Source: Calocera cornea HHB12733
Lineage: Eukaryota; Basidiomycota; Dacrymycetes; Dacrymycetales; Dacrymycetaceae
Direction: 5' to 3'
DNA: 17,595 nucleotides
NCBI GenBank assembly: GCA_001632435.1
Contig: KV423976.1
Location: forward strand, 154,103-171,697
The position numbers and the translations under genes were made by a program. Shown in pieces: positions 1-17,595 of this stretch. Positions within the stretch are counted from its first letter, which is position 1; the number at the start of each line of letters is the position of its first letter. A model generated the notes under the pieces. That model did no database searches. It was not told the DNA's origin and worked only from the letters and a program-made list of their open reading frames with translations.

Positions 1-1045
1 TCCTCCATAACAATCTGCTTGACGCCTGGACCCAAATTGCCACTTGCAATCCGTGGAACGACTCCTTCTGGGCTGCTCATGAGCCCTATTCTGTGACCCT
101 CATGTATGGTCAGAATAGTCCCGTTACACTGGACTCCCTGGGTGGCTTCAATAGCCTGGAGAGCCAGATCAGCAGTGAACACAACTGCGCACTCATCGAT
201 CGCTATGTGATTGCGCTTGTTTATGTTCAGTAGTAAGACCCCATCCAATACCATCGAGTTCCAACCTAGCCTCTCACCCCGCTCAGTGCTTCTTATGCTA
301 ACCAACCTGTGCCCGTGATTGGTGATCGCGCCGGCATAACCTGCCAGTTCACCGACGAATAGGATCGCGTCCACAAGCACGATATCTATCCCGTTGCTTT
401 TTCCAAGGACATTTGCAATGTCCAGGCGCGCGGCCTGCCAAACTTCCTTGCGCAGCGTCTCGCCACCCTCAACACGACTCATTCCCAGGAGGACAACACA
501 GAGCCGCCGTTACGCGGTATTCGCTATCAAGGGTATGGCACGGACAAGACGGTCTATCGCCACACTCGGCAAGAGCACGACGCCGTATTGGGTGAAGAAA
601 CCGCGTGTCTTGTTGCAGGTGGCACCCCAGGATCCCACGTGATTAAGCGGGATCGGTTCATCCGCAGGATCAATGACATCCGTCCTTGGGAAAGAACGCG
701 CGACCGAGTTGTTGCGAGCATCCCTAGTCTTGGACATCGGAGCGAAGCAGAGTATGCGATTATTCTGAGCAATCCCCCCCGGGAGAAACGCAATGCGAGG
801 TGACTGCGCCCTGCTACCCCCATTGTACCTTCTGCTCATTGCCCCAAGGTCCATTGTGCACGAGCTCATCAAGCCTATGATCCTGCCTTACACATTGAAG
901 ACACACGGGAAAGCGGACTTCCGTTCCACCCTGCGTGTCTTGAACCCCGGTGTAAGCTTTCACGCTGCTCCTGCGCAGGAGCAGCGTGTACATGAGCATT
1001 GCCGTTCCACGTTTGGCCGGCATAGGAGGATCGTGAAACTGATCA
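1..1045 (+). pseudogene. Broken partial copy of alpha-1 (exon 2 to intron 4)
   Basis: This stretch aligns without a gap to 6141-7185 inside alpha-1. By eye I count about 45 mismatches in the first 960 bases, so it is roughly 95% identical. It begins inside the second coding exon, so the 5' part lies beyond the window or is missing. The exon and intron borders of alpha-1 are kept. In the third exon a GAG codon has become TAG at 360-362, which stops the reading frame about 25 codons into that exon. The match ends at about 1045, inside the counterpart of intron 4 and just after its second palindrome, so the last two exons are absent. It is a non-functional duplicate fragment. An expressed truncated peptide cannot be ruled out but is unlikely. 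Confidence 0.85.
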
Positions 1046-1101
1046 TTGCCCCACGGCCTCACATAGACCGTTTCACGCTGCTCCTGCGCAGGAGCAGCGT
1101 G
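961..1101. repeat. Three Pal-1 palindromes (961-988, 1008-1035, 1074-1101)
   Basis: Each copy is 28 nt. The first is a perfect palindrome of half-site CACGCTGCTCCTGC. The second is degenerate and starts exactly 47 bp after the first. The third is perfect and extends to 32 bp (1072-1103). The first two match the pair in intron 4 of alpha-1. The third lies past the end of the duplicated segment and has no counterpart there. Confidence 0.9.
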
Positions 1102-1280
1102 AACACACAGGCGAGGAACACCGTATCATTAGGTGGAAACTAGCTACTACATGACCGATTAGATGCTAGGGAAAACCACCCCACAGCGAGGAGACTACAT
1201 ATAAGCCGCGCGCGAGGCTGAGCTGACCGAGGAGAGAGAAGAGGAGCGCGATGGTGTTTTCTCAACCTGGAATCGGAGAG

Positions 1281-4200
1281 TCAGTATGGACAGCATGGCA
1301 CAACCGTGGGACGAACGAGGAGCGCACCGCGTCTGGCCGACTTGTTTCCTGCCTTGCCGCCCTTGCCTGCGGTGGGCGACTCGGCTGCGCCGGAAGTCTC
1401 TGCCGTCTCTGCGCGCTTTTTAGCCTCCTTTTCCTCCTTCTTGCGGGCCTTGGTGAGAGCACCCTTTTGCGCGGGGGTGAGGTTGGCACCCGGGTCGGGA
1501 GCGGGGGGTGCCGTCGCCGCCGCCTTGCCCTGTTTCTTCTTCTTGGGCGGTTCGGGGGCGGGTTCTTCGTCCTCTTCACGGCCCCGCTTCTTGCCCGCGG
1601 TCTTGGAGGGCTTGCTGGGACCGGCTTCGGGCTGCTCCGTGTCCGAGTCGATGACCATGCGAGTGCCGGGGCGGATCGCAGCCTGTCCGGCCGCCCTGTT
1701 GGGCGTTTTCAGCGGGCGTCGATCGCCGCCATTGTTCTCCTCCTCGTCCTCCTCCCCCTCAGTTGGGCCGGACGGATCTCCGAGGAGGTCGTCATCCTCC
1801 TCCTCATCGCCGCCGTCTTGGCCGCCGTCCTCGCCGCCGTCCTCGGCGCCGGCATTGTCGTCCTCATCACTGAGCTCAGACAACACCACCGGCACGTCCT
1901 TGCTCGCCCCGACCTTGGGCGAGTCGCTGAGGCGCCCACGCTCCTCCTGCGCAGGAGGAGCGTGAGATGGTCCAGCGGACGGTAGCCCCGGCTTCGTCAC
2001 TTTGCGGGGGCGAGGGCGCTCCGCGGGGGCCTTCCCCTTGTCGTTGCCCGACTTCTCTTTGACGTCGGCTTTGCCTGCGACTTCTGGCAAAAGAGTCAGC
2101 TCACGCTCGCCCTGCGCAGGAGCTCCGTGAGGCTCACCTTTGGCTTTCTTCTTCTTCTCCGGCGATACCATGCCGGTCTTGAGCTCCTGCACCCGGAGGA
2201 GCTCGTTCGTCATGACGTCCTCGTCGCCCCTGCCGTCGAGCTCGTATAAGAAGTGGTCCCTAGAGGCGCGCTCGACCAGGCGAGCGATGTCGTACTTCAA
2301 GATGCTCCCGGCAGCCTTGTTGAACAGGCCGCACAGGTCGTCGATAGCCTGCTCGGCGCTAGCGGCGAGATCCTTCCTGCTTCTCCTGACCTCCGCGGTG
2401 AACTTCTTGGCGGGACGCTTGATCTTGAGCGAGGTCGAAAGCTCGGCTTCCTCCTTGACCTCCATGGTCGGATCGTCCTTCTGACTGGGGATGTTGCCGT
2501 CTGCGCCCGCTTCAGGGCGCGCAACAAGTCGTTTGGGGACGACCGTCAACTTCTTGTCGAGGTACGACAATATGTCGATCCAATCTTCGCACTTGAGGAT
2601 CTCGCCGAGGCGAGTCTCTGCACGGGCAGCGAGGGGGATGAACCGATTCAGACGCTCCAGGACCCTTTGCTTGAAGACGGGATCGCTCGGTGGCATCGGC
2701 GGGGTGAGCACGTGCATGGAATCCTCCGCCCAGGATTTCCAGACGGTGAGCTGCTTGGGCGTCTGGATGGCGGGGTACTGTTTGCCCCAGCCCTTGCGTG
2801 CGGCCAGGTGGTTGTAGAGATTCTTCGCCATAACGGTGGCACCCTCGGAGTTGGCCAGAAGCAATTTGCACGGATCGATCGTTTCGAGCTTAGTCTTCGG
2901 ACACATCTCGTCGATGAGCTTGACCGAGTTGAGACAGAGGGAGAGCTCCTTGACGTTGAAGTTGGGACTGAATGAGCTCAAGATCTGCATGCGGTCAGTG
3001 TTGTCACTTAACCCTCTATGGACTACTCACGTCCATGTACGTGTCCCACAATTTGTCGTTGGGCCATGCCGATCTCTTCGCGAGGGCCGTTTTCTCCACG
3101 ATGCTTAGGGCGAGCAGACGAAAGGCGGAATCCTCAAAGAGCGTGCCTTGGGCGTTCGACAACGGTCCGTAGGACGCGTACGAGGGGGAGAGGTAATGGC
3201 CAATCTGCAGAAGATCGTCAGTCTCACGCTCGCCCTGCGCAGGAGGAGCGTGACCCACGATTTCGAACACAGGGCCAAACCCTCCCGGCCGATCTTCCGC
3301 CTTGATCTGCTCGGTGTACGTTGTTGGCGTGCCTGGGACGAACCACATGAACTCGCGCATCTTCCGTTCGACATACGTGATGAACTTTTCGCCATGTTGA
3401 TAATGGCTGGCAGGGAGCTTGTCGTCCTTCACGTGGTGCACAATTTTCTTCTTCGTTGCCACGCCGTCTTCAGCGATCTTGAGGGACAGACCGTCTTTAG
3501 CGTCGAAGAGCTTGGTGAGCTCTTCGACGAGAACGCTCCCGTAGTCCCGCCAGGAGGCATTGCGACCGCGGGCGCGCGCTTCGGCCATCTTGTCGTACCA
3601 GATCTTGCGCGCGCGGCCGAGGGTGAGCCACACCTGAGGATGCATCATCGCACCAAAACCGATCGCAGCCTCCAGCGCCTGATGACCGAATATTTGAACG
3701 AGGAGGATGAAGTTAACCGCCCAATACTGAAGAGTTGTCAGCGATATTCACGGAGCTCCTGCGCAGGAGGAGCGTGAGACTTACATCGCGAAGGTGACCA
3801 GCGTGCGCCACGGTGACGAAGTTCATGGGGACGTCTTCCCACCCAGTCAGGTGGAAGACGTCCCTCACGGGGACGGCGAAGGACGGGTCGAGCACGGCGC
3901 GCGCGGCCTCGTCGCTCGGAGCCATTTCCGCGCGGATTGACACGACGCGCTCCTCCTGCGAGATGGACTCGTTGCCGAGGATCTGGAGACAATTGTCCCA
4001 CTTGTTCTTCGCGCTCGCGTCCTTGCCGATCTCGCGCCGGTTCGAGACGAGCTTGCGGTACAGCTCGCGGCCGGCGTCCGTGTCAAGAATAGCTGTGGTT
4101 CATCAGAGAGGGAAACAACTTATATTGCGTCAGGTACTAACACTCATCGAACACGTGGACGATCCACCACACGTCCTCGTCCTTCGACCCAAATATATGC

Positions 4201-4676
4201 TGGTACAGCTCGAACTCCTTCATGCACTGCTCGTAGGTCATGTGCGCCGCGATCTGACGATGTTGCCCAGCACTGTTCTTCACCGCCGTGATGTCCTCGA
4301 ACTCGACCTCGATGTACGTGTCCGCATTGAGGGGGTTGACGACGTTGTTGGCGATCTCGTCGGCGTTGCGGATGTTGCTCCTTTTCGTGAGGGCGAACAT
4401 CGGATACTCGAACCTGCGCATGCCGTTCTTGAAAGACGCGACGAGCGCATTAATATTGTTGAAGTCGGCGTCGCGGCCCAGTTCGCGCTCGAACGTATTG
4501 CAGGGCTCTTGCTTATTGCGCGGGTCGGGCATCACCCAGTATCCTTCGCCGAGCTTGTACTTCTTGAGCTCCTCGGCGAAGTTGACGCTCTTGATGTCCT
4601 GGGTGGAGGGGACGATCTTCTTCGCTTTCGCCTTGCCTTTCGCGGCCTTCGCATCGGAAGCGGAGTCACCGGCCAT
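1281..4676 (-). CDS. beta-1: large protein of unknown function with acidic and lysine-rich tail
   Basis: I do not recognise a known family. Six coding exons (4676-4142, 4092-3785, 3726-3259, 3204-3031, 2984-2138, 2074-1281) join in frame to 1041 residues. The start is the first ATG after a 5' UTR intron, because upstream reading in that phase meets TAA. Residues about 88-107 carry a PM...T..SNI.N..E block that is also found in beta-2 (about 79-96), which is why the two are paired. The middle is mixed alpha-helical-looking sequence. From about residue 770 the protein becomes low complexity: a KKKKAK patch, a long Asp/Glu/Gly run (about 843-896), nuclear-localisation-like KKRGR and KKKKQGK clusters (about 938-960), then a Lys/Glu stretch near 990. 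This suggests a nuclear protein. Introns at 3727, 3205 and 2075 each hold one Pal-1 palindrome, while those at 4093 and 2985 hold none. It diverges from alpha-1. Confidence 0.8.
1937..1964. repeat. Pal-1 palindrome in the last exon of beta-1
   Basis: This is a perfect 28-bp palindrome of half-site CACGCTCCTCCTGC. It is the only copy without a clear surrounding intron. The beta-1 frame stays open through it and would read HAPPAQEER on the minus strand. A weak donor GTGACG (from about 2004) with in-frame acceptors at the palindrome centre or at CCCAAG could remove it, so intron versus coding is undecided. Confidence 0.75.
2075..2137 (-). repeat. beta-1 intron 5 built around one Pal-1 copy (2102-2129)
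   Basis: The intron is 63 nt. It has donor AAAG/GTGAGC, a palindrome starting 8 nt later, then branch-like GCTGAC and acceptor TCGCAG. Because the length is a multiple of three and stop-free, a simple ORF finder reads straight through it as false protein (HGAPAQGERE). Confidence 0.85.
3205..3258 (-). repeat. beta-1 intron 3 built around one Pal-1 copy (3225-3252)
   Basis: The intron is 54 nt. Its donor is GTGGGT, the palindrome begins 6 nt later, branch-like ACTGAC follows at once, and the acceptor is TTCTGCAG. It is stop-free and a multiple of three, so it also masquerades as coding sequence. Confidence 0.85.
3727..3784 (-). repeat. beta-1 intron 2 built around one Pal-1 copy (3749-3776)
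   Basis: The intron is 58 nt. It has donor GAT/GTAAGT, a palindrome 8 nt into the intron, branch CGCTGACA and acceptor TCTTCAG. Splicing joins RD to YWAVNF in frame. Confidence 0.88.
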
Positions 4677-4781
4677 CTGCGTCGCGGTCAGCTCACGATG
4701 CTCCTGCGCCGGGGGAGCGTGAGATGGGACCAGCCCGGTCACGTGCTCCCCCATAGAGTGATGGGCGCGGGAGGGACTTAC
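4677..4781 (-). repeat. beta-1 5' UTR intron with Pal-1 (4694-4721)
   Basis: A perfect AAG/GTAAGT donor at 4781 and a GAGCTGAC...CGCAG end at 4677 define a 105-nt intron that stops directly before the ATG. One imperfect palindrome lies near the 3' end. A left half-site-like TCACGTGCTCCC 46 bp away (from 4740) suggests a second, decayed copy, which would fit the length of about two units. Confidence 0.75.
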
Positions 4782-5246
4782 CTTGGGCGGGGGACTTGGT
4801 TGATTTGGATGGTCGGTTCGTACACGCCAAGGCCCTCCTTATGTACCTCACTGACCGATGCACGGGCCACCGTTTCAACCTGCGCACGGACTCCACATCA
4901 CGCGGATGCATTTGAGGGGCTGTGCTAAATCCATAACCCACGGTTCAGCCTCACTCACGCTCGCTCTGGGCAGGGCCAGCGTGAGTGGCTTCGATATCGT
5001 ACAACCCTTCGCTTACACGCTGCCCCTGCGCAGGAGCACCGTGAACCGACATTGTATCCGCTACTTTGCGGAAGTTTTTCTGACAGGAGCACGTCATCCT
5101 AGACATCAATAAACAATAAACAATGTTCTTGCTTCCGTGCTGCCCAGCCATTATATCAAGGTGCCCGTTAGCCTTGGGGTAAGGGTTGGGCACACCTCAT
5201 TCTCTCCCACCACTTGCTCCCCAGTTGCCGTGCCCGTCTTACCATC
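4782..5246. promoter_or_regulatory. Divergent intergenic region between beta-1 and alpha-1
   Basis: This region must hold the 5' UTR and promoter of both genes. A TATA-like TTATATCA at 5151-5158 lies about 95 bp before the alpha-1 ATG. A pyrimidine-rich stretch (about 5200-5245) precedes that ATG. Two Pal-1 copies lie at 4956-4983 and 5016-5043, on the beta-1 side. On the minus strand a GTAAGC donor next to the second copy and a GGATTTAG acceptor could make a further UTR intron around the first. No complete additional gene is visible. Confidence 0.55.
4956..5043. repeat. Two Pal-1 palindromes (4956-4983, 5016-5043)
   Basis: Both are 28 nt and imperfect, with CACG and CGTG ends and GC-rich arms. 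The first keeps extra symmetry outside the core (CACTCACG and CGTGAGTG). Their spacing is 60 bp rather than the usual 47. Confidence 0.8.
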
Positions 5247-8200
5247 ATGTCCGACACCGACGATGTTGACATGGATCTTCTCAACTACGACTCCGAGGCG
5301 TCCAACCACTCCGAGCCGTCGAACCACCAGGATACCGACGACGATGACAGTGACTTGGACCCCGGCCTTGTTCAGCCAGACCGTCTCCCCCAGGCCAACG
5401 CCGCGTTCTTCAGCACGACGGACAGCTCGAGCCATCCATCCGTCCGCAGAGTCCCACCCACTTTTCTGCAGGAGACTCGCCATCATGTCCGGCCGGACAA
5501 TGCCTACTTCCGCGACCCCGGTCAATCCGTACATGACACCGAGGATGTCATTCGTCAGTATTGCTTCGAGCCCTTGGAAATCGATTTCAAAGACCCGTCC
5601 GCCTCGTTTGGCAATATTCGCGCTAGCGGCTTGGATTGGTCGAATGCTGCATTGTTCGTCGATTGTTTCGGGGCATTGTCGAATTCCCCTGGTCTCGGTG
5701 TATTGTTCCCTGGGTCGCCCACCGTCGTCTCTTTGGCCGACTATCTCGTCCTCCGCCCAGCGAAATATCTCACCTTCCTCAGAGACCACGACGGTTTCAT
5801 TGGTTATCCTACCAAGCACCTGACCTTCTATCTTGGGCTCTGCCACGATCGTCCCGTCTGGCTTCTATTTCGTCCCAAAGACAGAAACGCGCGCATTCGG
5901 GGAAACAAAGACGGGGTCGCAAAATGGGAACTACGTGCGAGACAGATGCGGGGTATTCTGGCATACGCAGTCGGCAAACTGCCCGGCAGCCATATTCACA
6001 GTCGCAACCCCGCCCTGCATGCGCCTGAGGATATCGCTACTTTCCTGTGTGTCCACTCATTTTCCATCATGCTGCTCTTGCGCTCACCATCAATGTCAGT
6101 GCCATGGATTCAATAAACCTCAGCGCCGTTCAAGTCGATCTCCTCCATAACAATCTGCTCGACGCTTGGACCCAAATCGCCACTCGCAATCCGTGGAATG
6201 ACTCCTTCTGGGCTGCTCATGAGCCCTATTCTGTGACCCTCATGTATGGTCAGAATAGTCCCGTTACACTGGACTCCCCGGCTGGCTTCAATAGCCTGGA
6301 GAGCCAGATCAGCACGGAACACAACTGCGCACTCATAGATCGCTATGTGGTTGCGCTTGCCTATGTTCAGTAGTAAGTCCCCATCCAATACCATCCAGTT
6401 CCAACCCAGCATCTCACCCGGCTCAGTGCTTCTTATGCTCACCAACCTGTGCCCGTGGTTGGTGATCGCGACGGCATAACCCGCCAGTTCACCGACGAAG
6501 AGGATCGTGTCCTCAAGCACGATATCTATCCCGTTGCTTTTTCCAAGGACATTTGCAATGTCCAGGCGCGCGGCCTGCCAAACTTCCTTGCGAAGCGTCT
6601 CGCCACCCTCAACACGACTCATTCCCAGGAGGACAACACAGAGCCGCCGTTACGCGGTATTCGCTATCAAGGGTATGGCTCGGACAAGACGGTCTATCGC
6701 CACACTCGGCAAGAGCACGACGCCGTATTGGGTGAAGAAACGGCGTGTCTTGTTGCTTGTGGCACCACAGGATCTCACGTGATTAAGCGGGATCGGTTCA
6801 TCCGCAGGATCAATGACACCCGTCCTTGGGAAAGAACGCGCGACCGAGTTGTTGCGAGCATCCCTAGTCTTGGACATCGGAGCGAAGCAGAGTATGCGAT
6901 CATTCTGAGCAATCTCCCCCGGGAGAAACGCAATGCGAGGTGACTGCGCCATGCTACCCCCATTGTACCTTCTGCTCATTGCCACAAGGTTCATTGTGCA
7001 CGAGCTCATCAAGCCTATGATCCTGCCGTACACATCGAAGACGCACGGGAAGGCGGACTTTCGTTCCACCCTGCGTGTCCTGAAGCCCGGTGTAAGCTTT
7101 CACGCTGCTCCCGCGCAGGAGTTCCGTGTACCGAGGCTTTTGCGTTTCACGCTCGGCCTGCGCAGGAGGATCGTGAAACTGATCAGCGCTTCCACAGGTC
7201 ATCCCTTCCGCATTGCTGGACTGCTCTATCGCCTGGGAATGCCTTGCCGCGACATTGTGGAAACAAGCCATGACCCTTACCGATAACGGCAGGAAATATT
7301 GTTCATGGGATCTCATCGAAGGCATCGCCATCGCCACCGCGAATATCGCGCTGTGCCAGACGGGCGACCTCCGTGTGACCGATACAAAGATCTATCAGAG
7401 TTCCGGAATGCTCGCTGCGTTGAAAGCCACGGGTGTGCCCACCTTGGATCCCAGCTTCTGGCCGGCCGCGCCTGAGGGCCGCCTTCTACCGGATGCTTGG
7501 CCTCGCAACCCGGTCACCAACGTGCCTCGGTCGCTCGCGTTCCGTTCAGCGAAGTATCATTTCAATGCAGACGTCGCCTATGTACACGTGTGCCCTGTCT
7601 CTTGCTGACCTCCGCTGACCTCTCTGTAGGCCTACTTGTCCCGTTTCAAAATTGAGCTGCATCTGGAACTCTATCGTCTTCGGGGCGCGCTCGACGCCGA
7701 CGGTGTGCGCGCCCGAATGGCACACCTCGTCATGGACGCCTGGCTAGAGGAATGCCGCACCAATATCACCACCACCGGCGCCAAAGCCCTTCGGCGCAAG
7801 CGCGATCGCATAAGCACTGTGCGAACCATCAGTCGGGCGGCGAGAGACATTGGGTTTGGAAAGATCGACGAACTCCAGCGCCAGCTTGATGATTGGCTCC
7901 AAAACGACTCACCCCTTCATGGCTGGGAGGCCGAGCAGCTTTTTGCCAATATTTTTGGCGTTGCGCTTCAAGATACAACCTCCGCGCTCCCCCTGGCGCC
8001 TGCTGCATCCATGAATGTGTCTCAGTGGGCCGAGCGAATGGTCAACATGGCGACCACCGGGGAGCATATTGGCGCTCCGTTCTTCTCAAGGAATGGTGGC
8101 AGCTTGGCTGCCTTAAGCCAATTCGTTGAACAACTCACTTACGGGCAATCACCGGATGCGGCCAAGAACCAGCGCATGTGGCTGCAGGACGCCATCCAGA

Positions 8201-8640
8201 ATCAATTGATCACTCGCTCTATCAAGATCGCACCCTGGTCTAATGGACATGGCCTCGCTAATGCCGAAACTTGGATACGCCTCCACTCTACTGGCACTGC
8301 CGATCCCACCTGGAATCATCAGCCTCGTCCCCGCAACGAGCAAGACGCGGCTCGCCAGGCATACAATGACCGCATTGTGCGTGAACGCGCTTCGGCCATC
8401 TGGTACGCGAGAGATCCCCTGGCCCTCACCGCCATTGAGCTGTCCCGCGATCGCCTCTCCCATGAGATGGTAGCAGGATTCTCGGCACTTCAAACGGGTG
8501 GCGGTAGGGCGCCGTCAGACATGAATTATCCAAGCGCATTCCGATTCCTACGTAACCGATTCGAATCTAAGGGGGTTTTTCGAGAAGTTACGGTTACAGT
8601 TGTAGTCCCCAGGATGAAATATCCAGAAAAGCTACCCTGA
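5247..8640 (+). CDS. alpha-1: large protein of unknown function, C-terminally truncated
   Basis: I do not recognise the family. Six exons (5247-6046, 6100-6372, 6427-6939, 6989-7091, 7198-7581, 7630-8640) join in frame to 1027 residues. The start ATG gives an Asp/Ser-rich N-terminus like that of alpha-2. Shared motifs in order are FIG[YF]P with GxCxDR and FRxKD (about 181-212), DIA.FL at the exon 1 end, YGQN, CNxQ...LPNFLA, RSE.E then P...RNA[RK], K[IV]Y..SGMLA....TG.P.L...FWP, and PW...G.AN...W[IV]R. Introns 1, 2, 3 and 5 match the splice positions of alpha-2. Intron 4 (7092-7197) is unique to this gene and holds two Pal-1 copies. Homology stops at about residue 1006, after YP.A.R....RF. About 20 unrelated residues follow, while alpha-2 continues for some 260 more, so the 3' end has been lost at a junction. 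It may be non-functional. Confidence 0.78.
7092..7197 (+). repeat. alpha-1 intron 4 with two Pal-1 copies (7101-7128, 7148-7175)
   Basis: The intron is 106 nt, with donor GGT/GTAAGC, branch-like ACTGATC and acceptor TTCCACAG. The two palindromes start exactly 47 bp apart. Alpha-2 has uninterrupted coding sequence at this point, so the intron was gained here or lost there. Confidence 0.88.
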
Positions 8641-8670
8641 GACGGAGGCACAATGCACCTGCGGAGCAAG

Positions 8671-8747
8671 ATGTGACAAGATTCTAGTCTTGTCGCATCC
8701 ACATGCTCCAGGGTGTATGATGCAACAAGATAAAAGTCTTTTCACAT
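8671..8747. repeat. Two Pal-2 palindromes (8671-8698, 8720-8747)
   Basis: The first is near-perfect, with arms ATGTGACAAGA and TCTTGTCGCAT. The second is more decayed. They start 49 bp apart. Read on the minus strand, the first is followed after 12 nt by CAG, as in the intron arrays. Confidence 0.85.
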
Positions 8748-9032
8748 CCTAATACCTACACACACGCATAAACAGTTAGGTAACAGCACTTTGTGTACTT
8801 CATACAGTCTCTATGTAACCTATATAGGACACCATATGTACCAAAGACTAGGCTGCACACAAATAGTTACTGTAACGGAACACACTTAGTCTAAACAAAT
8901 CCCGATTATGATTGTTAACCACCTTAAATGATATAAATAGCATGAATAAGCATCTTAATGCACTTATTCTTGGCCATTATCAATGACCGTAATCCTTCCG
9001 AGACTACTTTGTTCCCAATACTGGGGGGGACA

Positions 9033-9060
9033 ATGTGACAAGATTTATATCTTGTTGCAT
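9033..9060. repeat. Single Pal-2 palindrome downstream of alpha-2
   Basis: The copy is 28 nt with arms ATGTGACAAGAT and ATCTTGTTGCAT. On the minus strand it is followed by a 12-nt C-rich tail ending in CAG, which resembles a 3' splice site, but no donor is evident before it. Confidence 0.88.
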
Positions 9061-9126
9061 TGATGTGTTTGGAGTGGTGTTTTCATTGATGTTTGCCGTA
9101 TTTACATGTCCACTACAAGCTATAGA

Positions 9127-12100
9127 CTAATACTGGCGGCGTCTTTTTGCTGCCTCAATATCCAATAGTGTAGTTGCACGGCGGCGCCGTATGTTCTGGC
9201 CATCAGGAGGAGGCCGAGAAGCAGGCCTTGTATCAGCTACTGGATCCTCGGCAGTCATAACCCGTGCTGCCGGTGGGGCCGGTGGGGCCAGAATCAGGTT
9301 CTTCTCTTTGAAGACCGCAACATTATGCTCCCCAAACAGATCGGTTAGCACCCCCTCAATATCGTGGGCCCGCCACCGCTCTTGAATACGGTTCCAGTCA
9401 TAAAGGAGTGCCGCTTCACGATTCCAAGCGTAGTTTGGTCCCTCGGGTGCTCCTGCCGTGAGCAGCCGTGCATCTGTGCCATGCACATGGAACAATCGCA
9501 AGTTGCAGAACAATGCCAATTGTAGCCGCTTATTGGCTATGCAGTAGTTAGACACATACTCCTTAGACTTAGTGGAACACATACAGTGCACTTTGTTCTT
9601 TAGGTCGGCAAGTGTCACCTTTGTGGCGGACAGGATCTCTGCTTCCATTTTGTGGAAGCGATAAACACAGTAGATGAGGAAGAAAGCCAGGATGCGTTCT
9701 GGGTCCTTTGCCCCCTTCTTGTTATTGCTTGGTGGGCCAAACCGGAGCTGATGTTGTTCTTCCCGCACCCGTTCTGCACTGTTCAGATTCCGGAATTGGC
9801 TCTGAGCGGGAGGCTGGTACTGGTAGTTTGGCAGAAGGTGCCCAATCACCGTCGTAAGAAACAAAAAGTACTGATGGATCGGACTTGTGAGGTCCCGCAA
9901 GAACCGCTGTTCGATCAGACGGATTGCCTTTGGGTAATCCATGTCTTTCTTCTGCGAGTCCTTACCTGCTTTGAGATCATGTAAAGCTGACTTGAGCTCG
10001 GTGGACAAGCATGAACGGTGGAGCGGAATCGAGTTGAACTCGGGATGGAGTGGATCGGTGGCCATCCAGTCTTCCTCATCCTCGAAATCCCGTTCCTGTT
10101 CTTGGGCAAGATGTGCTTCCATGGCTGACTCCTCATCTTCCTCTTCCGAGTTATGGACAATGTCCTCGGTGTCAAGATCGGCAGGCATTGCAGCCGCTGT
10201 TCCTTCATACAGCACGCGTACCCAGTGCTTGGGATTAGCAAAACCAGTGCCGGCACTATTCCATGGGAGGATGTCGACCCTTGCATTGTATAGCGCTTGC
10301 TGCAAACCTTTGCGGAGCCAGACATTGAAGTTGCCTCCCATTGATACACTGTGCTGAGCGCGAAGCATCAGCAGTACTGACTTGAGCATGGCCAGTGCGG
10401 TGCTATGTCGGGATGCAAATGGCACCGTGGCATTGACGGTCTCAGCGTTAGCCTGCTTGAACATAAGCTCGGTGACATCGTTGATTGACACTCGAGAGAT
10501 TGGCGCCCAAGGGAACTTTGGTTGTGCGGTGGAACCAGTACCAAGGGCACGGTTGATCTTCATATGGCCTTCCACCGCATCCCAGAGGCCGCCTGTTTCA
10601 GCCCAAGCACTGAGCGCTATCTTCCTGCGTTCCAGTGCAGCTACGGTGGCCCGACTCTCTTCTGGAGCCGATGTTGAACGTTGTCGGGCTTCCACAATAT
10701 CCTTCTCCAGACTGGCAGTCCCCTTCCGAAGGACATGAGCCGACAGCTCAGCCAGCAGTGCACGGATGACTTGACCGCATGCCAGCTGTCGGCGGTATGT
10801 TGGAGTATCCAGCCTTGTTCCATCGAGCCGATCCATTTCAAACTCCAATGCTGCCCGTTTGCGGTATTCCTATCATTAATTCAGTTAGAGTGTCTATGTG
10901 AATGCTCCTCCACTCACCTCCGCAACATCGGGGCCCCAGTTCTTTAATGCGGCCCACCATCCGAGCAAAGGTAAGTCCTTCGATGATGTGTAGCTTGGCC
11001 AAGCCTTAGCCAGCATTGACATGGCCCCTGTTCGTGCATTGGTTGGCCAAAACTCTTCTGACAAGCTCGGGAACCCGGTCTCCCGGTAATTTGCGAGCAT
11101 TCCCGATGCCACATAGACTTTGCTATCCATAATGATCTGGTTGCCGGACATGGCCAAAATGATGTTCCGCTCACAGACGGCGGCCTCTTCAATGGTTTGC
11201 CAGCGGACCGGGTAGACCCCCCAGTTGGATTGCTTCATACCCTCAGCAAAGACGCGGTTGAGCGTGAGATTCCACATGAATGCCACAGTGACCATCAGCC
11301 GTGGCCATACCTCCTCACAGAAGACCATGAGGCCATCCCGGAAGCGGTCCTCGTTCTCCGTATAGACCAATGGAATCTCACTCAGCACGTTCACAAAGAT
11401 CCTATGCATTATCAGCTATGTCCAAGGCTGAGATTGGGGACATACTTGGCATTGCGATCGGCAGGAGGGAAACGGTCCGGGAAGAATACAAACTCTGGCT
11501 CCGATCGCACACCAATCAAGGTGTTTCCCACTAGCAACCGATCCGCGGCTCTGGCAAAGGGTGTCTTCCGCTTAATCCGGTCAATCAGCCGCTTGACAGC
11601 TGCTGCCTTTGAGCCTGACTGTCCGCATCCGACCAATGCTGCAGTCATCTTTCCGAGCCGTAGATCATTGTGAGCATTTGTTGCTGGACGGAGGCGGTTC
11701 TTCGGGCAAGCATACAGCTGATAGCTTGAAGCCATCACTGCTTGGCTGGCATTTGCTGGAGCATTCCGTCTCTTTGCAATCCGCTCGTTGACACTATGCA
11801 ATCCTTCTGCCAGGAAGTTTGGGAGAGTGTCGGTCTGGATATTGCAGGCTGTCTTTGTGTATGCCAATGGAAACATGTTGATCTTTCGAAAGGTTCCATT
11901 TGGATTCATGAACTCTGCCTTGACTCCATTAGCATCGGCCACAACTCCAAGTGGAGTCTCCCCATCAAAGTCGGACACTGCCCTATAACAATGTCAGCTT
12001 AATGTCCAAGCAGTGTTAATGTGACAAGATTTAAATCTTGTCGCATCGTCGACCTCAGCCATGTAATGTGACAAGATTAAAATCTTGTCACATCCATGGT

Positions 12101-13288
12101 CTGGGTTAGGCAATGTGACAAGATTTAAATCTTGTCGCATGACTTACTCCTGGACGATAGCCAAGGCCACAGTGAAGCGTCCAAGCTTCTCCATGGAATA
12201 CTTCGTCCCCCACGTTTCGGTGAGCCCATCCCATCCTTCATCCGAGAGTGTAAGGCCTGCGTTCTGACCGTACTTCAGGATCACAAGGAACAGTTCATAT
12301 TTCGAGAAGTAGTCATCATCGGCCTTCCATGGGGCATTCTCGGCCCATCCTTCATAGAGGTTGATCCAGTCTCGGTTCAGTCTCTGCAATTGTGGAAGGT
12401 CCAGGCTGACCTCTCGCATCTCACTGGATGGATCTTAGTATGAACTCGGTGAAAGCATAGATTGACATACAGAAAGGAGGCAATGTCCTCATTGCCATAC
12501 CGGTATTGATCGTGGCAGATGATTGGGAGATCACCTAACTCGGACAGACAGAACACCAAGAAGGCACGGAACTGCCGCATCCGTCGGTCAACGACCTCTG
12601 CGGGTGGTGCTGTCTGCCGCTTTCGCAGGGCGGGATCCTTGTGACGGAATGCAAAGCCACAGGTGCGGTCTTGACAGATACCAATATGGAAGTAGTTGTT
12701 CTCCCATGGAAAGCCGATGAATGCGTGCTTGTCCCGCAAACGGCGTCGGTATTGATCAGGCTGGATTGTCAACCAGCGATCATCATGCATGGTATTGCGG
12801 GGGGGGATAGCAGCATCCCAGTTCGGGAGGGCCGAGATGGCCCCAACACAATCAATGTATGCACGGAGTGGCTCCCATTTGACATTGTCGGTCCAGTCGT
12901 CCTTGGCATAGACAGCCGGGTTACCGTCATTGTACAGATCCACCTCGACTTGGCTTGAGCGTAGCCACTCAAGGTCTGACTCCGCACCTTCGGCATAGTT
13001 ATCATTGAACCACCCTTCCGGCAACTTCAATAGACCCGCTGCTGTGCCTTCTTCCGGCTCATCGGCAAAATAATCGATGCCGCCCTGCTCCTGACCAGTC
13101 ACATCGTCAACCAAGAGTGGATCCACAATGTCAAATACAGGGGCGAAGGCGGCCTCTTCGGGTGCTACAGGGAGCGGCACTGCATCACGTGATTGTGCTG
13201 GCTCAGTGCGTCCAGTGGCTTCCAGGATGGTATCTGAAGTGTATCCGAGTTCCGCATCTGAGGCCTCTTCGATATCGGAGTCTGCCAT
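9127..13288 (-). CDS. alpha-2: large protein of unknown function, apparently full length
   Basis: I do not recognise the family. Five exons (13288-12471, 12423-12148, 11982-11446, 11401-10918, 10869-9127) join in frame to 1285 residues. The start MADSD was chosen because it aligns with MSDTD of alpha-1 and follows a CT-rich leader; the frame is open further upstream. Motifs shared with alpha-1 are FIGFP...GxCxDR...FRxKD (about 189-220), YGQN, CNIQ...LPNFLA, SGMLA...FWP and PWN...FANP..WVR. Features not seen in alpha-1 are a long Glu/Asp insertion (about 935-980) and a C-terminal region ending in two basic clusters, RRRR and KRRR (about 1264-1283), that look like a bipartite nuclear signal. 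Introns 1, 3 and 4 are 44-48 nt and have no palindrome. Intron 2 is 165 nt with three Pal-2 copies, at the position where alpha-1 has a plain 54-nt intron. It lies downstream of beta-2 on the same strand. Confidence 0.82.
11983..12147 (-). repeat. alpha-2 intron 2: array of three Pal-2 copies (12019, 12066, 12113)
   Basis: The copies occupy 12019-12046, 12066-12093 and 12113-12140, with starts exactly 47 bp apart and 19-nt spacers. The intron runs from GA/GTAAGT to TTATAG with branch AAGCTGAC. The first unit alone would already be a complete 47-nt intron (GTAAGT, palindrome, CCTAAC, CCCAG). Alpha-1 has a 54-nt intron without palindromes at the same place. Confidence 0.92.
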
Positions 13289-13581
13289 ATCAGGAAGGTG
13301 GTGGTAGGAGAAAGAGAGAGAGAGACCTGTGCATTGTGGCCCACGGTTCTGGATAGTACTGAGCACGCAATCTCTGTCACGTGATACTTGTATTGGGTTT
13401 TCACTCACTCAACGATTGGGTTGAACCAAAATTTATATTTTCAGGTACCGACTGCATACAACAACAAGGAGGAAGAAGGAAGAAATGCCAGAGATTATAC
13501 AGATTCTTTTTTTTTGCTTTTCACTCGTTTTATCCTTTTTTTGGTTGAGACTGTTGAAGTCTCAGACAAGCGGGTGGCTTA
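13289..13581 (-). promoter_or_regulatory. alpha-2 promoter and leader
   Basis: On the minus strand there is a TATA-like AAATATAAAT at 13431-13440, about 145 bp before the ATG, a CACGTGA element near 13377-13383, and a CT-repeat leader (about 13299-13326) typical of fungal core promoters. The region also contains the beta-2 3' UTR. No further gene is seen. Confidence 0.55.
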
Positions 13582-16500
13582 TTACAAGTCACGACGTCGG
13601 TAGGGAGCCGATGGGCCCGGAGACTGAGTGGCCTGCTGACCATGGCGGGGACGCAACTCTGGTACCCAGGTGAGTGATGTGACAAGATTTAAATCTTGTC
13701 ACACTTACCACGCCGGGGCGCCACAATTGGTGGAGCCGTCTTCTTCCCACTCCTCTGATGGGCGGGAGTGTGCGGTTCTTCAATCTCACCATCCTCAGTC
13801 TCGTCCACATGGCTGGGCTCATACTCTTGGGAATCGGGGACAATGAAGCCAGACAGTGAGGAGCCCCGCTCGTTCTCATCATCCTCTGGTTCCTCCTCCT
13901 CGTCATCCATGCGATCGTCTTCAGCTTCATCGTCAATAAAGCGGCGGACATTCACAGGCTCGTCTTCATCTTCCAAATCATCAGCCTCATCCTCCTGTGT
14001 GCCAGACATACTCTGGCTGAGTCGGGCCAGAATCTTCTTCTTGCCTTCAAGAGAAGCCTTATCGAAGGCCTGCTGCGCCTTTAGCAGACGGTTCTCCTCA
14101 GCCTTCTGGGATGCGGTGGCCTTGGTTGATGCCTCGGAGGCCTGGGCAGCGGCCTTCGTTTCTTGCAGCTTGCCTTTGGCGGCCTCTTTGATGCGGGTCA
14201 TTGCCCCACGGATGGCATCGCTCGTGAAGGCCTTACGACCATCGGCATCCTTGAAATACTTGATGGCCACTGGCTCGAGTGCCTTGAGGATCTCGCTGGT
14301 GATGCCATCGGCTGCATCCTGCAAGGCATCGGCATTCACCTCTGCCCGCTTTCTCTTGGCCACAGCCCAGTCCGCACCCATGTCGAAGAGTGTTGTTGGT
14401 GGGACTCCTGCACCCCAAGTCGACCGAAGGATGGCATAGTCGGCGCGCCACTCTGCATTGCTCATGAGGCCGGGCAGATACTTCTCCTGAACGTGCATTG
14501 GGCCAAGCACACGGGTGAGAATCCGTTCTTCAATCGTCCGCACGGTGCCTGTGTAGGTCCACTGGATATGCCTCATGTAACGAGCCAGCACCGGATACAC
14601 AATGTCAAAGTGTTCGGGACGGCCCTCCTTGGGGGGTTCAACACCTTCACTCCAGTTGCGAACAGATTGGAGGTAGGTCCCCCACTTCTGCCCAAACGTG
14701 CTCGGATATTGATCGAACTTGGCCATGATCGTCAGAGGGGTGAGCTCCGTGCTGAGTTCCTTCTTCCGAAGGTTGGCCTTCAGCTCGTTCTGCTGAGACG
14801 TCATCCAAGCCTTCTTTGTATTCGGGCTGTACTGAGCGGCAAGCTTGGTGAACCGCTCCATACCCTTAGGGGTGTCCAGGCTGGTGGCTTCAGCTGCATT
14901 CAAGATGCACATGAGGGGACCAGGCATCCGATGGGGTGCATTCTGGACACGGGAGCCGGGACCCGAAGACAGAATGGTGATTTCGAGATGAGCCGCTTTC
15001 TGTTAGAACACAAGTCAGCCATGGCTCTCAATGTAACAAGATATATATCTTGTCACATCCGATTCCCGAGGGCATCGAATGCGACAAGATAGAAATCTTG
15101 TCGCATCATAACACTGAGTAGGGCAATGCGACAAGATTGGGGTCTTGTTGCATTCCGCTATCTGAGTGATGGAATAGGGATCGCAGAGTACGTACCGCAT
15201 ATAACAAGGGGGCAAACCTTTCCCACTTCTCGACCTCACGCTTGAAGTTGCCGGGGGTAACCAGAACGAAATCATGGCCCAGTGCCTTGCACCGCTCAGT
15301 GATGGCCTTGGTAATGGCCGAGCGGTATGTGTAGATGTCCGGTGCAAACTTGGCCTTCTCGACATTTGTTGGTGGGAGGAACAAGTGCTCCAGTGCCTCG
15401 GCCACATGCTGATGATATGGGCCCGTATTCCGGGGGATGCGGTAAGATGCCCATGGAGCCTTGCCGTCCCCGTTGTGGAAGTTGTGGAGACTGTAGATGT
15501 CGGTGAAGCCACCAATCGTCATGTTCTTGGTGAACACGTCCAGAACTTTGCCGTCAAATGTGCGGAGGCTCTCGTCAAAGATGATGTCGAGCGTGCCACG
15601 AAGCAGCCACTCTCCAATCTCAGGGACGCGGTTGATAAGGGCATCCAGAAGATTGGCACCACTCTTGAGGGTATCCCACCCAGGAACACGCATCAGCCTT
15701 GTAATGAGGTCTCGCTTCGTGGGATCGGAGAGCGCCTGCTTGTTGGTACTGTTGGCCGTGAGGTGCGTGAGGGCCAGCTTATACCCAGCATCGGAGTATT
15801 GGGTGATTTCGAGAGTGTGGATCGCCTCCGTCCAGTTGCGGGCAAATGTCGGGAGAATGGCCAACGGCTTGGTGTTTGAGGTGAGGTACTGGATGATTGG
15901 CAGCCAGACACGGTGATCGGGATCATTGTCATCGAGGAGTTCTATAAGTGGTGTCAGACATGAAATGTAACAAGATTTAAATCTTGTGACATTCGTACCT
16001 TTGGGATAGAACTCAACCGACCACTGCATCTCGACACCACTCTTACCGCGTGTCCGGCCCCAGTACTGAGAGCCTTTGAGCCGATGGTTGCCGGCACCAA
16101 GAATAGCATCATCCCAGTTCAGGACCTCAACGACCAAGTCCAAAGAAGCTGGGTCGGCCGGATCGGGGTACTTGCCAAGAACCTCCTTGATGTTCTTGAT
16201 GTTCGACATCGGCGTGAACACACGCATGGGGAACTGGCCATCAAGCTTGTTGTTGTCGAAGGCGTTCGCGAACTGCTCCATGGCAGACTCCGTGACCACA
16301 CGGAGCTGACGTTCGTAGACACGGGGGTTTGTCTTCTCTGTGATCTCGATCTTGGCCACGAGATAACACAGTCGGTTGGCTATGGTGGCTGCCGTCTGTT
16401 GGATGACGGTGTCATCGAAAGTGCGAAGCATAGCCGCCACCTTGCGGGGATCCTATACAGTGTGTCAGACCATAAAATGCGAAGAGATAAAAATCTTGTC

Positions 16501-16619
16501 GCATCCGCTTCCTCAGCACGTGGATGCGACAAGATACTGATCTTGTCGCATTTCCCGTCTGGGGAAGGTGGATGCGACAAGACTGGGATCTTGTCGCATC
16601 TTACCTCAGCGCCGGGCAT
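13582..16619 (-). CDS. beta-2: protein of unknown function with acidic tail; every intron carries Pal-2
   Basis: I do not recognise the family. Five exons (16619-16605, 16452-15999, 15941-15196, 14999-13709, 13658-13582) join in frame to 860 residues. The first exon is only five codons, MPGAE. Its GAG/GTAAG donor and the TCTGACAC...TATAG acceptor are clear. The block PMRVFTPMSNIKNIKEV (about 79-96) matches beta-1. Residues about 405-620 are Trp- and Arg-containing globular-looking sequence ending in a basic KRKR cluster. An Ala/Lys/Glu-rich probable coiled coil follows (about 685-725), then an acidic run (about 741-785) and a short tail. The last splice was set at GTACCAG (branch CTCAC), which gives a stop at 13582. 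A later acceptor would change the final 13 or so residues. All four introns contain Pal-2: three, one, three and one copies. Confidence 0.8.
13659..13708 (-). repeat. beta-2 intron 4 built on a perfect Pal-2 copy
   Basis: Positions 13678-13703 are a perfect 26-bp palindrome with TTTAAA at the centre. The 50-nt intron has donor GTAAGT, whose last bases overlap the palindrome arm, branch ACTCACC and acceptor GTACCAG. The plus strand across the same palindrome also starts with CAG/GTGAGT. Confidence 0.82.
15000..15195 (-). repeat. beta-2 intron 3: array of three Pal-2 copies (15031, 15079, 15126)
   Basis: The copies lie at 15031-15058, 15079-15106 and 15126-15153, spaced 48 and 47 bp. The intron is 196 nt, from GCG/GTACGT to TTCTAACAG with branch GGCTGAC. 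A 42-nt stretch between the donor and the first palindrome contains ACTCAG and may be the remains of a fourth unit. Confidence 0.9.
15942..15998 (-). repeat. beta-2 intron 2 built around one Pal-2 copy (15965-15992)
   Basis: The intron is 57 nt with donor AAAG/GTACGA, a palindrome 6 nt later, branch GTCTGACAC and acceptor CTTATAG. It is a multiple of three and stop-free, so unspliced reading gives a false in-frame insert. Confidence 0.9.
16453..16604 (-). repeat. beta-2 intron 1: array of three Pal-2 copies (16477, 16524, 16572)
   Basis: The copies lie at 16477-16504, 16524-16551 and 16572-16599, spaced 47 and 48 bp, in a 152-nt intron directly after the five-codon first exon. The first begins 5 nt after the donor. 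The spacers, read on the minus strand, contain CCCAG and GCTGAG, each ending 12-13 nt after a palindrome. Confidence 0.92.
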
Positions 16620-16743
16620 TGCTTATGTAATGTTCCTAATTAGGAAGGAGGAAGAAGCGAGAAGAGATGGGAAGAGACACAGGGCCCTGAGTTGGCTCTT
16701 TGGCTGTATATTTAAGTCATTTAGCCGTGGCTGCGCAGAAGCG
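16620..16743. promoter_or_regulatory. beta-2 promoter/leader, possibly bidirectional
   Basis: Read on the minus strand, a pyrimidine-rich leader precedes the beta-2 ATG. An AT core around 16706-16716 reads TGTATATTTAAG on the plus strand and CTTAAATATACA on the minus strand, so it could serve as a TATA element in either direction. It is about 95 bp from the beta-2 start and about 35 bp before a plus-strand ATG. Confidence 0.45.
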
Positions 16744-17080
16744 ATGGAAGCAAAGCCGCATGGGTGCCGCATGGCCGCTTACTCAGCGTGGCTGCGCTCG
16801 CTGACTCCAGGTGAGTCAAATGCAATGATGCGACAAGACTTGGATCTTGTCGCATCAGATCTTCAGATCAATCGATGTGACAAGATCCCAGTCTTGTCGC
16901 ATCCATTGCACCTGAGCCATGCAAACGATATTGACACACTCTGGTATTGTCTTTCTAGAATACGTGTCTCAGTCGCTATTTTGTTCTACCACTAAGGATT
17001 TGGGGAATTGGAAATATACATCCTGTATCTGTGCCCGGCTGATACCCACACTTCTTAGAGTAGCGATGACAATACTTTGA
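16744..17080 (+). CDS. Possible small two-exon gene opposite beta-2
   Basis: This is a tentative model. Exon 16744-16810 begins MEAKPHG and ends at CCAG/GTGAGT. A 148-nt intron (16811-16958) would end at GTCTTTCTAG with branch-like ATTGACA. The second exon, 16959-17080, stays open for 40 codons to TGA, giving 62 residues in total with no known motif. Support comes from a TATA-like element at a sensible distance, a strong donor, and the fact that the putative intron contains two Pal-2 copies, as the beta-2 introns do. The short length and the lack of any homologue mean it may be chance. Confidence 0.25.
16828..16902. repeat. Two Pal-2 palindromes upstream of beta-2 (16828-16855, 16875-16902)
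   Basis: Both are well preserved 28-nt copies, starting exactly 47 bp apart. The pair is bracketed by inverted CAGGTG and CACCTG motifs with CAATG and CATTG next to the palindromes, so the whole block is roughly symmetric. No Pal-2 copy is seen further right. Confidence 0.92.
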
Positions 17081-17164
17081 TGAGTCACCGTCCAGTCTGA
17101 ACTGTCATACATGCATGGGTAATGCTATACACGGCTGTGTTGTATGAGTCAGCATGCTTGAGTC

Positions 17165-17595
17165 AGAGTTCATTGACAATGTGATGGCTGTGTCAACTTG
17201 GTCATGGCCGATGACCAACGATTGCTGGATGATGCGATGGCTATGCTTGTGACATCATCGCTATTTGATCGGAGTGTAGTGACGATGCAATAGCTATGTC
17301 CACTTAGTCGTGGCCCATGACCAATGATCGGGAGATGATGCAATGGCTATGCCTGTGACATCATCACTATTTGTTCGGAGTGTATTGACGATGTGATAGC
17401 TGTGTCCACTTAGTCGTGGCCGATGACCAACGATCACTGAATGATGCGATGGCTATGCCTGTGACGTCATCGCTATTTGATCGGAGTATATTGACGATGC
17501 GATAGCTGTGTCCACTTAGTCGTGGCCCATGACCAATGATCGGGAGATGATGCGATAGCTATGCCTGTGACGTCATCGCTATTTGATTGGAGTAT
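17165..17595. repeat. 106-bp tandem repeat, four units, continuing past the window
   Basis: Units begin at 17165, 17271, 17377 and 17483, and a fifth begins at 17589. Each unit is a dimer of two related halves: the motif GATGYRATRGCTRTG recurs 53 bp apart within a unit (for example 17284 and 17337). The later two units contain a perfect TGACGTCA (17462-17469, 17568-17575) where the earlier ones have TGACATCA. No gene is seen in 17081-17595. Confidence 0.9.

Follow-up and report, generated by a model that had tools for sequence, protein, structure and literature searches.

The 17,595-bp stretch analysed here (hereafter the window), which forms the right end of contig C63 of the Calocera cornea HHB12733 genome (KV423976.1, positions 154103-171697 of 171697; genome of 32.1 Mb in 302 contigs), holds two gene modules, each comprising one member of a protein family designated alpha and one of a family designated beta, and each bearing its own palindromes (Pal-1 in module 1 and Pal-2 in module 2). 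In our assessment, alpha/beta modules probably represent families of mobile elements, many located at chromosome ends, in which alpha would bind DNA as a dimer specific to its element, with the palindromes as its candidate operators.

A consensus scan of the window, allowing 8 mismatches for Pal-1 and 5 for Pal-2, identified 12 Pal-1 copies (0-7 mismatches) and 16 Pal-2 copies (0-3 mismatches) of 28 bp each, with Pal-1 absent from module 2 and Pal-2 absent from module 1; when the window was shuffled at first order, 20 trials each yielded 0-1 Pal-1 and 0 Pal-2 sites. These are exactly the unmixed counts given in the first-pass annotation of this DNA. Pal-2 copies are found in introns (11/16) or intergenic DNA (5/16) and never in coding exons (0/16), yet 6441 of the 8310 bases between 8641 and 16950 are coding; they are present in every one of the four introns of alpha-2 and in one of the four of beta-2. 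Five of the 12 Pal-1 copies lie in modelled introns, one in a further intron (at 2102), one in the alpha-1 open frame (at 1937), and five outside genes. The copies at 961 and 1008 are not independent, since they are duplicates of those at 7101 and 7148, window positions 1-1045 being a 94% duplicate of the beta-1 region 6141-7185. Arrays in the window are spaced at 47-49 bp, save for 1008-1074 (66 bp) and 4956-5016 (60 bp).

If the palindromes act as a self-specific address, as the first-pass annotation proposed, further modules should carry further families, and three loci on other contigs do. On C236, a beta-like gene (37% identity) is followed by three copies of Pal-3 (TGCCAAAAGTCT-N6-AGACTTTTGGCA), whose only other site is on C94, where this tail recurs as a 97% copy. 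Pal-4 (CTCGCGAY-N12-RTCGCGAG) is present in 20 copies among tandem alpha-like genes in 12 kb of C296, where five matches show 30-36% identity to alpha-1. Pal-5 (AATCAATG-N12-CATTGATT in the best copies) accounts for six copies, found in both flanks and, as read by eye, two introns of a lone alpha-like gene in the interior of C7; a profile from which this gene had been left out recovered it at E 5e-9 (3299 frames searched; 0 matches in 2400 decoy frames). Five loci (module 1, module 2, C236, C296, and C7) therefore carry five unrelated families without cross-occurrence, and half-site consensuses are no closer between families than expected by chance (10 pairs; nearest Pal-2/Pal-3, P 0.07). A search for dyads that presupposed no motif, from which the fragment loci C163, C25, C270, C55, C154, and C118 were left out, recovered recurring families of 7, 13, 3, 12, and 4 members at the five loci, respectively. 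In six of seven control stretches, no family exceeded two members, and the remaining one, from C181, gave a 24-bp minisatellite of seven. The weak alpha matches on C5 and C183 were treated as spurious and served as controls; another stretch, L013 (999 readable bases, zero palindromes), was not counted as a control. The address proposal finds only a faint echo at the beta-4 fragments of C25 and C270, where a single longer 63-bp inverted repeat lies near the terminus.

The strongest single result comes from the comparison of introns among paralogues. A phase-0 intron shared by alpha genes, which follows the strand FGPVFEI in alpha-1, FAPLLYA in alpha-2, RDVIGL in copies A and D of C296, and NNLFKE in C7, contains Pal-1 in alpha-1, three Pal-2 copies in alpha-2, Pal-4 in C296-A and C296-D, and Pal-5 in C7; since copy C of C296 shows no Pal-4 at the corresponding stretch (by eye), this intron bears a palindrome in five of six paralogues. 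A second shared alpha intron (phase 1, after F/Y-D-E or FYPK) carries Pal-2 in alpha-2 and Pal-4 in C296-B and C296-D, and is palindrome-free in alpha-1 and, as read by eye, in C296-C and C7. Likewise, where beta-2 has its intron with three Pal-2 copies, beta-1 has a 54-nt intron free of palindromes, while the beta-1 intron with Pal-1 is private, having no counterpart in beta-2. As the palindromes occupy introns common to palindrome-free paralogues, they arose or changed inside existing introns, with the exception of the private beta-1 intron.

Genome-wide searches were performed at up to 3 mismatches for Pal-1, Pal-2, and Pal-3 and at up to 2 for Pal-4. Pal-1 occurs at 34 sites, of which C63 accounts for 9 (in the window, three of the 12 copies have more than 3 mismatches) and C118, C154, C243, C55, C78, C174, and C270 together for 25; Pal-2 occurs at 31 sites, 16 on C63, 7 on C163, which holds a 96% copy of beta-2 plus the end of alpha-2, and 8 on C104, C141, C175, C3, C181, C203, and C42. 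The reversed-pattern control for both gave 0 sites. On the 17 contigs besides C63 that carry Pal-1, Pal-2, or Pal-3, every such site lies no more than 5.4 kb from a contig end, and each contig also holds the matching family terminus (T-A on 7/7 Pal-1 contigs, T-B on 8/8 Pal-2 contigs). The confinement of each family to its own module, as first described, is thus true of the window and has to be widened elsewhere to remnants of the same elements; the scatter in unrelated genes that would have contradicted it was not seen for these three families at up to 3 mismatches. Pal-4 was matched on C296, at C207:12, at C270:40, 84, and 612, and, with 2 mismatches, at another 12 places, about the level of the reversed control (13 per strand). 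Two isolated Pal-4-like sites lie away from known modules (C138:83070-83097 and C4:123868-123895; 2 mismatches, both strands), and C163 starts with three GC-rich palindromes (47-168) unrelated to Pal-2.

Termini were compared on 20 contig stretches chosen for a palindrome or paralogue fragment, with C296, C7, C49, and C138 left out. Eight termini recur, of the form C-T/TA/TAT-AG-A/G/AA-T, beyond which the sequence is unrelated; 14 further matches to this expression were set aside as non-recurrent or conserved on both flanks. All 20 contigs hold terminus copies (36 in total), and 36/36 point inward, the nearest contig end being the left one on 16 contigs and the right one on 4. With contigs taken as units, the chance of such agreement is about 2 in a million, whether or not these ends are telomeres. 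Truncated distal ends adjoin the terminus of another element on C203, C175, C3, C55, and C270. An uninterrupted partner was available for 9 of 29 junctions, and the terminal AT is shared in 8 of these 9 (C78 being the exception). An inverted repeat precedes the terminus by 45-156 bp in 9 of 13 copies examined and in 7 of 8 terminus families, and it differs by family (Pal-1, Pal-2, Pal-3, and four others). A perfect 34-bp palindrome lies 147 bp from T-F on C243 (5544-5577), and T-F on C55 showed no such palindrome; T-D and T-H are preceded by other inverted repeats. In addition, the inverted repeat GGGTCCAAATG-N3-CATTTGGACCC is common to contig-end blocks of C236 (261-285), C25, C55, and C270. 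On C154, C118, and C55, a block made up of a terminus and two Pal-1 copies is fused to beta-1 from window position 6044 onward, and these joined blocks resemble a non-autonomous deletion derivative.

The placement of sites bears on the best-surviving alternative, in which alpha (or beta) is a transcription factor acting on its own genes through intron and flank sites, with no role in mobility. The C7 locus, with its lone alpha gene inside a contig and Pal-5 in introns and flanks, argues for it, as does the spread of sites throughout genes, beyond the vicinity of the terminus. Against such autoregulation, sites also lie near the inward terminus of truncated copies with neither alpha nor beta (e.g., C104, C141, C181, and C42), and alone it poorly accounts for 20 sites in 12 kb of C296; we consider it unlikely.

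The mode of recognition was addressed by a covariation test, in which arm agreement within each copy was compared with that of permuted arms for 12, 16, 20, and 6 copies of Pal-1, Pal-2, Pal-4, and Pal-5, respectively. Left and right arms agree at 135/168, 184/224, 183/280, and 59/84 positions, against 133.8, 182.2, 183.4, and 59.3 after permutation (P 0.40, 0.36, 0.57, and 0.63), and the lowest P among sub-tests is 0.16 (outer half of Pal-2). Each arm is held separately to a shared half-site, which fits a dimer on two half-sites better than a hairpin. In the 28-bp families, the centres of the outer 8-mers are separated by about 20 bp, which would correspond to two helical turns. Pairs at 47-49 bp recur in Pal-1 and Pal-2, distances of 60-73 bp occur in some Pal-1 arrays, and copies of Pal-3, Pal-4, and Pal-5 are more widely and irregularly spaced. 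Hairpins of RNA or DNA, serving as a splicing aid, a transcription end, or a 3' signal for reverse transcriptase, would be in keeping with the inverted repeats near termini in seven of eight families, which recall structured 3' ends of retroelements, and with sub-threshold Rfam scores (13 matches in the window, mostly microRNA hairpins over palindrome arrays). Beyond the missing covariation, no Rfam match reached the gathering score in 10 sources, intron copies would leave the mature RNA by splicing, and none of 35 genome matches to RVT_1 reverse transcriptase lies on the 20 terminus contigs, which may stop short of one. We regard hairpins as improbable.

Slightly less probable still is the colonisation of each module by a separate introner, i.e., a tiny intron-making transposon, which was the alternative raised in the first-pass annotation. 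Many copies do nearly fill a 50-60 nt GT-AG intron, and the private beta-1 intron speaks in favour of an introner. Conversely, 5/16 Pal-2 and 5/12 Pal-1 copies (two of the latter in the duplicated beta-1 intron) lie outside modelled genes, up to three copies share one intron, palindromes sit in both beta and alpha introns that palindrome-free paralogues also possess, Pal-1, Pal-2, and Pal-3 occur elsewhere only with the terminus of their own element, and arms vary independently, so that this alternative has fared poorly. Passive spread by subtelomeric recombination and gene conversion, unread by any protein, is the least probable of all, for although contig-end mosaics are rich in duplicated blocks and C270 and C174 hold near-tandem Pal-1 arrays (period mostly 73 bp), the C7 and C296 copies keep their half-sites while diverged outside them, and homologous introns hold unrelated palindromes.

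According to the model we favour, that of mobile elements with private operators, each element family would encode alpha, and some also beta, co-diverged with its own 28-30 bp palindromes. A protein dimer would sit on each palindrome, contacting two outer half-sites of about 8 bp with centres about two helical turns apart. The sites would be kept where DNA drifts freely, in introns and intergenic flanks, often 45-156 bp from the inward terminus and partly as pairs or triplets 47-49 bp apart, and through them the protein would recognise its own element alone. The likeliest use would be to tag the element for its own machinery, i.e., for mobilisation, maintenance in trans, or protection from silencing. 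Alpha is favoured over beta as the binder, given that the stretches of C296 (12 kb) and C7 (8 kb) carry alpha and beta was not detected there; C236, which starts inside beta and carries Pal-3, keeps beta as a candidate. That copies devoid of genes keep the subterminal site speaks for mobilisation or maintenance, and the abundance of sites in introns speaks for an action on chromatin or element expression, as with VANC proteins on VANDAL transposons; both are retained here, unranked. We put forward only tentatively, as a possibility with the balance somewhat against it, that these elements form a chromosome-end superfamily with no detectable reverse transcriptase, in which protein and operators co-diversified into at least five orthogonal pairs, operators were replaced in place in homologous introns with dyad length nearly fixed, and a subterminal operator attaches or protects the element at chromosome ends. 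The alpha/beta modules offer a natural paralogous protein series with predicted binding sites readable from its own introns, which allows a direct test of how orthogonal protein-DNA specificity evolves. They also supply candidate orthogonal DNA-binding proteins and point to a kind of chromosome-end element matching no family nameable by the searches made here.

Several observations weigh against this model. Members are not confined to contig ends, as the loci on C7 and C25 lie 94 kb and 37 kb inside their contigs, respectively (for C25, measured from the contig start; the others compared for termini are near an end). Only C181 of the 20 contigs bears a telomere array, and contig ends can be assembly breaks; C181 starts with this array, 4.7 kb outside its Pal-2 tail, and its telomere-proximal 4.5 kb gave two matches to the terminus expression, both non-recurrent, and 4 kb of C271 gave none. 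Four of the 13 terminus copies have no scoring inverted repeat: T-A on C270, where a Pal-1 copy at 2020 failed to score because of its asymmetry, T-E on C94, T-F on C55, and T-G on C270, where 106 bp were available. No recurring dyad was found at the beta-like gene of C49 (25% identity), within the 5.0 kb readable there (3197/8201 bases are N), which is where the expectation of a new family per module failed. C236 combines beta with Pal-3 and shows no alpha on a contig that begins inside beta, and C270 is a mosaic of Pal-1, Pal-4-like copies, and a beta-4 fragment, so the absence of mixing earlier expected of other modules holds at the five loci and is broken there. Finally, scans of alpha and beta against Pfam, NCBIfam, PDB profiles, PHROGs, and PADLOC found no known DNA-binding domain, and two AlphaFold models are of low confidence (mean predicted local distance difference test score, pLDDT, 36.7 and 37.6).

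In detail, Pfam gave no credible match in 10 exon frames or 6 alpha segments, PADLOC gave none, and PHROGs gave nothing credible (best E 0.0093, over a 29-residue stretch). Among the best 60 of 88 matches up to E 10, the PDB profile search returned designed armadillo entries (E 0.0004 and 0.0083) and Ras (from 0.047), which were distrusted as short or compositional. The six aligned alphas share an invariant G-x-x-R (GQHR, GNHR, GATR; residues 137-140 of alpha-1), together with invariant R68 and N101, a motif resembling ParB/Srx or DGQHR proteins; the ParB-like fold that it prompted found no support in Pfam, NCBIfam (3 sequences), or the PDB profile search. A search of viral and bacterial/archaeal contigs with one beta-2 exon found no relative. 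The Pal-2 core pattern in viral contigs gave 25 stretches with a single palindromic site each, which was taken as chance.

Gene models (Table 1) were obtained by splicing by eye and homology. Introns in the window are short, GT-AG, with CTGAC/CTAAC-like branch sites, in keeping with a fungus and probably a basidiomycete. Alpha-1 and beta-1 are divergently transcribed, and gene order is unlike between the modules. Beta-1 and beta-2 share 29% identity over about 900 aligned columns, and alpha-1 and alpha-2 about 19% over about 210 columns (E 0.001 or less). As element 2 ends within beta-1, it supplies about the last 25 codons of the beta-1 frame. The first 386 bases of the duplicate at the window start are 99.5% identical to C154 3546-3931, and a 106-bp tandem satellite (17158-17595) extends to the contig end.

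Table 1. Genes, palindromes, and the element 2 terminus in the window (window coordinates).
Feature	Position	Strand	Remarks
Pal-1 961-988, 1008-1035, 1074-1101	961..1101		first two in duplicated beta-1 intron
Alpha-1 gene (alpha family)	1281..4676	-	most of gene modelled, C-terminal end incompletely
Pal-1	1937..1964		within alpha-1 open frame
Alpha-1 GT-AG intron with Pal-1 2102-2129	2084..2137	-	read by eye
Alpha-1 conserved phase-0 intron with Pal-1 3225-3252	3205..3258	-	splice model, paralogue comparison
Alpha-1 intron with Pal-1 3749-3776	3727..3784	-	splice model, scan
Alpha-1 leader intron with Pal-1 4694-4721	4677..4781	-	splice model, scan
Pal-1 4956-4983, 5016-5043	4956..5043		between divergent alpha-1 and beta-1
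Beta-1 gene	5247..8564	+	1027-amino-acid frame, 5 introns; 3' end cut by element 2 at 8565
Pal-1 7101-7128, 7148-7175	in 7092-7197		beta-1 private intron; splice model, scan
Terminus T-B of element 2	8565..8602	-	minus strand reads ...ACCCCCTTAGAT; common to 8 other contigs
Pal-2 8671-8698, 8720-8747, 9033-9060	8671..9060		first two near terminus T-B
Beta-2 gene	9127..13288	-	1285 amino acids, 4 introns
Pal-2 at 12019, 12066, 12113	in 11983-12147		beta-2 intron; splice model, scan
Alpha-2 gene	13582..16619	-	860 amino acids, 4 introns
Pal-2 in alpha-2 introns	13677; 15031, 15079, 15126; 15965; 16477, 16524, 16572		grouped by intron; scan
Pal-2 16828-16855, 16875-16902	16828..16902		upstream of alpha-2

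Among known systems, the VANDAL elements of Arabidopsis encode anti-silencing VANC proteins that probably recognise short motifs recurring in the non-coding parts of one family only and differing from family to family, and the families described here likewise have private motifs repeated in the non-coding DNA of the element. They differ in that VANDALs are plant MuDR-like DNA transposons, while no MuDR or VANC domain was found in the 10 exon frames and 6 alpha segments scanned, the motifs are 28-30 bp palindromes, and many copies lie close to the end of a contig and have a terminus on one side only. Telomere-attached retroelements include HeT-A/TART, the endonuclease-deficient Penelope-like Coprina/Athena terminons, and MoTeR. 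The copies found here resemble them in lying near sequence ends, with a precise end inward and the other end truncated, at times adjoining the next element; the inward orientation would fit retrotransposition of the HeT-A/Coprina type, whereas the RVT_1 result on the 20 contigs and the divergent genes of module 1 speak otherwise, and the palindromes are family-private. In ParB-parS, a protein dimer occupies palindromic sites, as is proposed here, and the alpha G-x-x-R resembles the ParB/Srx type; alpha itself has no profile, PDB, or structure support, and its sites are 28-30 bp long and private to paralogues. Helitrons are marked by a Rep/helicase, a 3' CTRR with a hairpin directly ahead of it, and an AT target; here the terminal AT is shared at 8 of 9 junctions with an uninterrupted partner, alpha and beta frames gave no Rep/helicase match, and the inverted repeats lie 45-156 bp away from the terminus, not adjacent to it. 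Introners share with these palindromes the short near-palindromic introns, and differ in two hallmarks: near-identical introns across unrelated genes were not seen for Pal-1, Pal-2, or Pal-3 (at up to 3 mismatches), and copies here do not each create a new intron, the beta-1 intron with Pal-1 alone being private. The palindromes of C. cornea instead accompany their own element only, occur also between genes, and reside in introns shared with palindrome-free paralogues.

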